64,000 bases of DNA from Actinomycetes bacterium (GTDB lineage Bacteria; Actinomycetota; Actinomycetes; Nanopelagicales; Nanopelagicaceae). The stretch spans positions 1 to 64,000 of the forward strand of contig JANXZB010000102.1 in the NCBI GenBank assembly GCA_025355765.1, written 5' to 3'. This document shows positions 51,951 through 54,119 of this stretch, in pieces. Numbering within the stretch: the first letter of the stretch is position 1; every line of letters begins with the position of its first letter. The position numbers were made by a program, and so were the translations under genes. The notes beneath the pieces were generated by a model. The model was not told where the DNA came from. It saw nothing but the letters and a program-made list of their open reading frames with translations, and did not search any database.

Positions 51951-53390
51951 ATGCGTAGAGCGAAAATAGTGTGCACATTGGGACCAGCGGTTGAGACTTC
52001 TGAAAAAGTTCACCAGTTGATTGAAGCTGGCATGAATATGGCCCGGTTGAATCTTTCCCACGGCTCATACGAAGAGCACCAAGCACGCCTAGATATGGTT
52101 CGTGCGGCTGCAAATGAACGAGGTCAGGCAGTAGCCATCCTGGTTGATTTGCAAGGGCCGAAAATTCGCCTTGCTCGTTTCGCACATGGTCCGCATGATT
52201 TGGCGCGCGGTGACATTTTCACGATCACTACGGATGAGGTTGAAGGTACGAAAGAGCGCGTTGGTACCACCTACAAGGGTCTTCCTGGCGATTGCAACCC
52301 GGGGGACCGCATCCTTATAGATGATGGCAAGGTGACTGTCGAAGTAGTTGAAGTAAAGGGCAATGACGTTGTCACCAAAGTAATTGAGCCTGGAGCCGTC
52401 AGTAATAATAAAGGTATCAACCTGCCTGGCGTGGCAGTTTCAGTTCCAGCCCTTTCCGAGAAAGACATTGAGGATCTTCGATGGGGATTAAGAGCTGGCG
52501 CAGATTTCATTGCGCTCTCCTTCGTTCGTAACGCCGAGGATATTACTGGTGTTCATAAGATCATGGACGAGATGGGAATTCGAGTTCCGGTTATAGCCAA
52601 AATTGAGAAGCCGCAAGCGGTTGAGAATCTGGAAAGCATTATTGATGCATTCGACGGGATTATGGTTGCCCGCGGTGATCTTGGCGTTGAACTTCCGATT
52701 GAGGATGTTCCCCTAGTGCAGAAGCGCTGCGTTGAAATGGCGCGCGAGTCTGCCAAGCCGGTAATTGTGGCCACCCAAATGCTCGATTCAATGATTTCAA
52801 ATTCTCGCCCCACGAGGGCCGAAGCCACCGATTGTGCGAATGCTGTTCTGGATGGCGCCGATGCTCTGATGCTTTCTGGTGAAACCAGCGTCGGAGAATT
52901 TCCGATCGAAACAGTTCAGACGATGGCTCGGATAATTGAGAAGACCGAAGAGGGCGGCCTCGACCGCATTCGCCCTCTCTCGCATAAGCCACGAACAAAG
53001 GGCGGCGCGATTACAAAAGCCGCTGCCGAAGTAGGGGAGATTGTTGGAGCTAAATTCCTCGTTGCATTTACGAAGAGCGGAGATTCTGCTCGTCGGATGG
53101 CCAGATTGAGATCGCATATCCCGATTCTGGCGCTGACTCCAGATGTCGGAACCTACAATCGAATGGCTCTTACTTGGGGTGTGGAATCTATGCTTGCCCC
53201 GGTGGTAAGCCACACAGATGAAATGGTGCGGCAGGTTGATTCTCTTCTCATTGAGTCAAAGCGAGCCGAAATAGGCGAAGTGATCATGATCGTCGCCGGA
53301 GCCCCTCCTGGAATTCCAGGATCAACCAACGCCATGCGCGTTCACCGAATTGGAGATGCCGTAGGCGGTATCGCCCCTGCTTATCGCTAG
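51951..53390 (+). CDS. pyk: Pyruvate kinase
   Basis: A 479-residue glycolytic enzyme. It has AKIVCTLGPAVET, MNMARLNLSHG, the active-site VIAKIEKPQAVENL, VARGDLGVELP and LSGETSVGEFP, with a full C-terminal allosteric domain. It starts nine bases after gltD. No clear terminator separates it from the tRNA 52 bases downstream. Confidence 0.97.
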   Translation: MRRAKIVCTLGPAVETSEKVHQLIEAGMNMARLNLSHGSYEEHQARLDMVRAAANERGQAVAILVDLQGPKIRLARFAHGPHDLARGDIFTITTDEVEGTKERVGTTYKGLPGDCNPGDRILIDDGKVTVEVVEVKGNDVVTKVIEPGAVSNNKGINLPGVAVSVPALSEKDIEDLRWGLRAGADFIALSFVRNAEDITGVHKIMDEMGIRVPVIAKIEKPQAVENLESIIDAFDGIMVARGDLGVELPIEDVPLVQKRCVEMARESAKPVIVATQMLDSMISNSRPTRAEATDCANAVLDGADALMLSGETSVGEFPIETVQTMARIIEKTEEGGLDRIRPLSHKPRTKGGAITKAAAEVGEIVGAKFLVAFTKSGDSARRMARLRSHIPILALTPDVGTYNRMALTWGVESMLAPVVSHTDEMVRQVDSLLIESKRAEIGEVIMIVAGAPPGIPGSTNAMRVHRIGDAVGGIAPAYR

Positions 53391-53442
53391 ATCTTCGCTG
53401 GGAATTCGTGACATGGTGCGTTTTCGCTAGACTATCTCGCGC

Positions 53443-53515
53443 GCCTCGGTACTCCAACGGTAGAGAGGGCAGTCTCAAACACTGCATAGTGTCGGTTCGA
53501 ATCCGACTCGGGGCA
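53443..53515 (+). tRNA. tRNA with CAA anticodon (leucine TTG codon) and class I shape
   Basis: 73 nt. The acceptor GCCTCGG (53443-53449) pairs with TCGGGGC (two G-U pairs), and the discriminator is A53515. The anticodon stem GCAGT/ACTGC is perfect, with loop CTCAAAC, giving anticodon CAA. The T arm GTCGG-TTCGAAT-CCGAC is perfect. The D stem is weak (CTC/GAG plus a C-A mismatch). The variable loop has only five bases (ATAGT), whereas bacterial tRNA-Leu normally has a long variable arm. CCA is not encoded. TAGACT (53428-53433) is a possible -10 box. Confidence 0.8.
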
Positions 53516-53516
53516 C

Positions 53517-54119
53517 ATGAATTCAGAATCCACACTCGGTGCAATCGCACCTCGCATCGTCGTCGCCGAAGATGAGGCTCTTATCCGCATGGATCTGGTG
53601 GAGATGCTCACCGAATCTGGTTACGAAGTTGTCGGGCAGGCAAGCAACGGACAAGAGGCCATTGCCCTCGTGCAAGAGCTGAAGCCGGACTTGGCAATTC
53701 TTGACGTGAAGATGCCCGTCATGGATGGGATCTCAGCGGCCGAGGCGATCATTCATGTATCGCCAGTACTCATGCTCACCGCATTCAGCCAGAAGGAATT
53801 GATCGAGCGCGCCCGTGATGCTGGGGTCATGGCCTATGTGGTGAAGCCCTTTTCAATAACAGATCTCGTACCCGCGATGGAAATTGCAATGAGCAGACAC
53901 AAGCAAATGACTTCCCTTGAGAAGGAAATCTCCGATCTTCAGGATCGTCTAGAGACTCGCAAACTGATTGATCGCGCCAAAGGGATTCTTATGACCGCCC
54001 TCAATCTCACCGAACCACAAGCCTTCTCCTGGATACAGCGCGCCGCAATGGATCGAAGGATGAGTATGAAAGAGGTCGCGATGGCAGTCATTTCGCCAAC
54101 GGCAGTCCCTGAGCGTTAA
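53517..54119 (+). CDS. pdtaR: ANTAR-domain response regulator (PdtaR type)
   Basis: A 200-residue regulator with a CheY-like receiver (phospho-acceptor D63 in LAILDVKMPVMDG, LTAFSQ and VVKPFS) and a C-terminal ANTAR RNA-binding domain (about 139-195: LIDRAKGILMTALNLTEPQAF and on). ANTAR proteins bind paired hairpins to prevent transcription termination. The only usable start, ATG 53517, is one base after the last encoded base of the tRNA, so there is no room for a ribosome site. The partner sensor kinase is not in this window. This gene commonly lies next to pyk and polA in actinobacteria. Confidence 0.93.
   Translation: MNSESTLGAIAPRIVVAEDEALIRMDLVEMLTESGYEVVGQASNGQEAIALVQELKPDLAILDVKMPVMDGISAAEAIIHVSPVLMLTAFSQKELIERARDAGVMAYVVKPFSITDLVPAMEIAMSRHKQMTSLEKEISDLQDRLETRKLIDRAKGILMTALNLTEPQAFSWIQRAAMDRRMSMKEVAMAVISPTAVPER

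Follow-up and report, generated by a model that had tools for sequence, protein, structure and literature searches.

The window, meaning the whole 64,000-nucleotide stretch of DNA analysed here, contains at 53443..53515 (+) a tRNALeu(CAA) of class I shape that is very probably a functional elongator tRNA for UUG that needs no long arm to be charged by LeuRS and stands in place of the long-arm form. The direct basis for this reading is the structure, the conservation, the lack of long-arm tRNALeu(UUR) in complete relatives, the synteny, the identity nucleotides and the meaning of UUG, from which we infer charging and expression. To our knowledge, the textbook rule is that every bacterial tRNALeu bears a long extra arm. 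In the mechanism proposed here, the tRNA would belong to a tRNALeu lineage with a short variable loop and would read UUG, and the cell's single bacterial LeuRS would charge it through A73 and a Leu-type core (A14, A15-U48, G18G19, A20a, unpaired 13/22, and D-loop/T-loop contacts), a route for which the long arm would be unnecessary. An arm-less CAA gene and an arm-less UAA gene would thus replace the long-arm UUR pair here and in many other Actinomycetota, with CUN codons still served by long-arm tRNALeu. As tRNALeu(UAA) could read UUG by wobble, the CAA gene may be non-essential.

The gene was identified as tRNA-Leu(caa) at 53443-53516 (+) by ARAGORN, which called no other tRNA in the window, and the Rfam tRNA model RF00005 matched 53443-53515 with 52.1 bits (cut-off 29, E 1.4e-9). 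Read by hand, the 73-nt tRNA has an acceptor stem GCCUCGG/UCGGGGC followed by U8 and A9, a D stem of 3 bp (CUC/GAG; C10-G25, U11-A24, C12-G23), a perfect anticodon stem GCAGU/ACUGC with the loop CUCAAAC, the variable loop AUAGU (53486-53490), and a T arm of GUCGG, UUCGAAU and CCGAC; the discriminator is A73 (53515), and CCA is absent from the gene. The CAA anticodon, the perfect anticodon stem and the five-base variable loop reported in an earlier note on this DNA are confirmed. With 5 nt, the variable region falls short of the at least 10 nt that define the class II (long-arm) shape. The C-A mismatch in the D stem, which the earlier note had taken as a weakness, is real (C13·A22), but it is no defect, as positions 13 and 22 are unpaired in every Leu tRNA examined, whether of class I or class II. 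The single-sequence folding energy (-24 kcal/mol, z -1.56) is unremarkable, so that energy alone is no proof of the structure; conservation and covariation provide that proof. Just upstream, the hexamer TAGACT (53428..53433, +) is kept among relatives whose upstream DNA is otherwise divergent and is likely the tRNA's own -10 element; a consensus sigma-70 scan called no full promoter at the tRNA.

The Leu tRNAs found in the draft genome of the organism itself are the window CAA gene and long-arm genes for TAG and GAG, with no long-arm CAA among them. This draft is ~92% complete and lacks other isotypes too, and the absence of long-arm UUR genes therefore rests on closed relatives. A first, stricter pattern for class II Leu(CAA) gave mostly chance matches and would miss D loops of the bldA type, and the results given here come from a looser pattern and a covariance model. 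In six relatives, three of them single-contig assemblies, the class II tRNALeu covariance model found only GAG and TAG genes and, in one of the six, CAG (84-97 bits), with no long-arm CAA gene there either; the pattern search found long-arm CAG genes in further relatives. The class I model found exactly two genes per genome in the same six relatives, one CAA and one UAA (86-98 bits), and no other match above ~56 bits. The arm-less CAA and UAA tRNAs are therefore the only tRNALeu(UUR) in the closed relatives, beside long-arm tRNALeu(CUN), and both UUR codons rely on arm-less tRNAs in the window's family. That complete relatives have no UUG-specific tRNA other than the window type also argues against the suggestion that it was kept for another job.

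Across the phylum, 120 of 396 sampled Actinomycetota genomes had class I model matches at E <= 1e-13, a count that is set by the E-value and includes weakest matches that were not read singly. A strict sequence pattern for the arm-less form matched 69 of the 396 (reversed control, 0). Among the matches listed in a scan of GTDB representative contigs, 80 of 80 titles were actinobacterial and included Streptomyces, Mycobacterium, Nocardia, Corynebacterium, and Bifidobacterium, as well as Candidatus Planktophila versatilis (Candidatus Nanopelagicaceae), which has a tRNA of the window type; this likeness suggests that the window comes from the same family. A plasmid search with the window tRNA gave no match. 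In the window's class, class I and long-arm UUR genes together number exactly two in 51 of the 60 genomes sampled, and shuffled counts reach that sum in a mean of 26 and a maximum of 40 of the 60; these counts were copied by hand from two tables, with a long-arm pattern that can miss divergent genes and with kinship among genomes uncorrected. Arm-less and long-arm UUR genes thus substitute for one another in this class. The arm-less form is widespread among actinobacteria, and in many of them it is the sole reader of UUG and UUA codons. The earlier suggestion of a normal tRNALeu that had lost its arm was right as to an arm-less tRNALeu, but the form is stable and phylum-wide rather than a local loss.

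Recoding of UUG, a role purely as a leader of pdtaR, and a pseudogene were all considered and dismissed. In the first of these, a class I tRNA of another family would have turned CAA and be charged by another synthetase, with UUG mistranslated or recoded, as the class I shape could suggest given that LeuRS usually meets class II tRNAs. This is very unlikely, since homologues have Leu opposite UUG as often as they have it opposite CUN. Homologues of 11 window genes were taken from four GC-rich genomes; in the alignments, UUG fell on Leu at 189 of 250 positions (CUC, 183/269; CUU, 235/301), and at 174 of those 189 the homologue has a CUN codon. UUG accounts for 110 of the 460 Leu codons in the tested genes, and recoding would have to be massive. 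The alignments show UUG being read as leucine. One LeuRS above the family cut-off was found per genome examined, the one in the organism's own draft being split over two contigs.

The nucleotides of the core speak against different charging as well, because the Leu core and A73 are kept and a tree of the core groups the window tRNA with Leu and not with other class I tRNAs. Among 130 distinct class I Leu sequences, positions 13/22 are unpaired in all 130 and A20a, G21, and A22 are nearly invariant; these D-arm columns lie outside the pattern by which loci were collected. A15-U48 occurs in 129 of the 130 and U54, U55, C56, and A58 occur in all class I Leu examined, although the pattern used to gather many of the loci itself prescribes positions 46-48 and a large part of the T arm, and these columns are therefore not independent. 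A73 is present in all class I Leu examined and GG (G18G19) in nearly all of their D loops. The class II Leu tRNAs (n=19) share the features at 13/22, 15-48, 20a, 21, and 22, whereas 13 pairs with 22 in 27 of the 29 other class I tRNAs in the same genome as the window. Leucylation in E. coli needs A73, A15-U48, G18G19, A20a, and the D/T-loop contacts, and the long arm is dispensable (PMC9976931). As far as can be read from the nucleotides, these elements are present in arm-less tRNALeu; the rules are those of E. coli LeuRS and may differ for the enzyme of this lineage. In the tree of core positions, with anticodon and variable region excluded, a single clade (support 0.96) holds all Leu tRNAs, arm-less and long-arm alike. 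This clade and the location of the window tRNA at the same locus as class II CAA genes point to descent shared with other tRNALeu. Every testable mark of a tRNALeu (anticodon, A73, identity set, descent and codon meaning) is found in the window tRNA, and the earlier idea of an isoacceptor with different charging is not supported, with the leucine identity set kept and UUG read as Leu.

The only other members of the Leu clade in the core tree are two odd tRNAs from the organism's own genome. The odd set to which they belong comprises G000:C32:28219 (L067), G000:C9:2065 (L070), and G000:C40:587 (L066), which are called Ala(cgc) and Val and have GGTGTA-type D arms and odd anticodon loops. Other tRNAs are called Val(aac), namely G000:C135:9378 (L071) and L138, L146, and L152 of G016, and are possibly tRNA-like genes or cases of a misread anticodon; the three of G016 seem to be without U33 in the anticodon loop.

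The tRNA gene is flanked by pyk, encoding pyruvate kinase (51951..53390, +; PF00224 and PF02887), which adjoins the tRNA at many loci, and by pdtaR, an ORF encoding a response regulator receiver domain and an ANTAR RNA-binding domain (53517..54119, +; PF00072 and PF03861). The earlier note had suggested conservation beside pdtaR as a check and had held, with reservation, that related forms may exist at this place in other actinobacteria, which proved correct: pdtaR adjoins 94 of 102 CAA loci (one of which, L089, is class II, and with one window locus counted twice) and none of the 88 loci of the arm-less UAA form. Long-arm tRNALeu(CAA) genes occupy the same pyk-pdtaR interval in other genomes, and genus g35 has long-arm CAA genes at L320 and L322 versus a class I CAA gene in G054 (L074). 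In most members of the window's family the tRNA shares its strand with pyk and pdtaR, the reverse of its orientation in most other Actinomycetes. Within this one family, L026, L027, and L030 keep the other orientation as compared with L001, the tRNA being flipped with the order of its neighbours otherwise kept.

This arrangement bears on the second alternative, in which the gene would mainly be a tRNA-like 5' leader regulating pdtaR in cis with no part in translation. PdtaR is an ANTAR RNA-binding regulator, and the tRNA abuts the pdtaR start in 36 of 39 same-strand relatives. A cis-acting leader would be expected on the same strand and upstream wherever it is kept, but the CAA gene is on the strand opposite to pdtaR in 46 of the 94 loci beside pdtaR, the layout of most Actinomycetes, with pyk on the far side wherever the locus extends so far. 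A leader cannot therefore be the ancestral function, and as the gene is also the sole UUG-specific tRNA in complete relatives, we regard this explanation as highly improbable.

Alongside its function as an elongator tRNALeu for UUG, the arm-less tRNA may have acquired a second role in the Nanopelagicaceae-like lineage. In the window, a single nucleotide separates A73 from the pdtaR start codon (C-ATG, 53516..53519, +), and the arrangement of A73, C and an in-frame start codon (53509-53520 in the window) is found in 36 of the 39 same-strand relatives (L001-L025, L028, L029, L083-L086, L186, L196, L198, L202, and L205). The N-terminus of PdtaR varies widely, yet the start position after A73 is kept; at L025, PdtaR starts with MKILVAEDE, making a later start implausible. 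There is no space for a terminator between the two genes. The simplest reading suggested by this layout is a single transcript from which 3' processing of the tRNA would free a near-leaderless pdtaR mRNA. Tentatively, and at somewhat less than even chances, we propose that the tRNA gene turned round without leaving the pyk-pdtaR interval and that maturation of its 3' end leaves pdtaR mRNA with a leader of a single nucleotide (C-AUG). If so, an ANTAR-domain regulator would rely on tRNALeu processing for its expression, and the folded tRNA would hide the pdtaR start region until cleavage.

The window tRNA is conserved and under selection. It matched 48 of 60 relatives in a DNA search, and the identical 73-nt sequence was found at 21 of the loci examined, in different genomes. 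When 20 distinct homologues, drawn from several families, were aligned, all 400 cells of the 20 cloverleaf pairs (20 x 20) were paired, and changes on both sides occurred in 14 of the 20 pairs, where shuffling gives 8.4 +- 1.2 such pairs and sliding gives no more than 5; the D-stem register 10-12/23-25 belongs to the covarying helices. A decaying tRNALeu that lost its arm, as the missing arm, the C13-A22 mismatch and some G-U pairs might suggest, is the least probable alternative of all, given the sequence identical in 21 loci, the compensatory changes in all helices, and the phylum-wide family.

Bacterial class II tRNALeu(CAA) and tRNALeu(UAA), such as Streptomyces bldA or the long-arm CAA gene of the pyk-pdtaR interval, share with the arm-less form the anticodons, A73, the Leu-type D loop, unpaired 13/22, A15-U48, and the locus of the CAA gene; they differ in a variable region of 11-17 nt versus 5 nt and in having mostly G13 or A13 versus C13. 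Pettersson and Kirsebom (2011) reportedly dealt with the tRNAs of S. coelicolor. Animal mitochondrial tRNALeu(UUR) comes closest as a precedent: it also reads UUR, lacks a long arm, and has A73 and A14 (PMC9976931). In contrast, the arm-less form is chromosomal in free-living bacteria, has a full GC-rich cloverleaf, and coexists with long-arm tRNALeu(CUN) for the same LeuRS. A short-loop tRNALeu(TAG) from M. phocaicum and M. mucogenicum (PMC6582537) is likewise actinobacterial, but it is a CUA reader in a mobile tRNA cluster beside a normal long-arm isoacceptor and not a core-genome UUR reader. For M. tuberculosis, a long variable loop is described "especially" for Leu-2, -3, and -5 in the available part of PMC11541572, which leaves the short arms of the other two unremarked; the remaining two of the five tRNALeu are consistent with short-arm UUR tRNAs. 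A Streptomyces survey gives a single Leu(CAA) gene per genome, its shape unremarked in the accessible portion of the paper (PMC4932002). No account stating outright that arm-less tRNALeu occurs generally in bacteria was found in the open literature, subscription papers aside. Arm-less sequences are already in databases as tRNA-Leu, and what appears to be new, within that literature, is the phylum-wide breach of the class II rule.

The arm-less tRNALeu contradicts the long-arm rule across a phylum that includes Streptomyces and Mycobacterium, with a bearing on isotype models and on work that treats the class II shape as the mark of tRNALeu. It also supplies natural pairs of long-arm and arm-less tRNALeu for one LeuRS, in some cases with a shared locus inside a single genus, which opens the part played by the arm in charging, editing, and decoding to direct tests.

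Homologues of the arm-less UAA form, 74-75 nt long and likewise annotated as tRNA-Leu, are present in the Mycobacterium and Streptomyces phages Kykar (L340, MG962370.1) and Yaboi (L341, NC_048730.1), from which the chromosomal form differs in not being phage-borne. In addition, 3' halves of arm-less tRNALeu(UAA) whose 5' half was not accepted by ARAGORN were observed at L175, L199 (two), L203, L216, L228, L268, and L276, and one of arm-less tRNALeu(CAA) at L281; such halves resemble what the attachment sites of integrated elements would leave.
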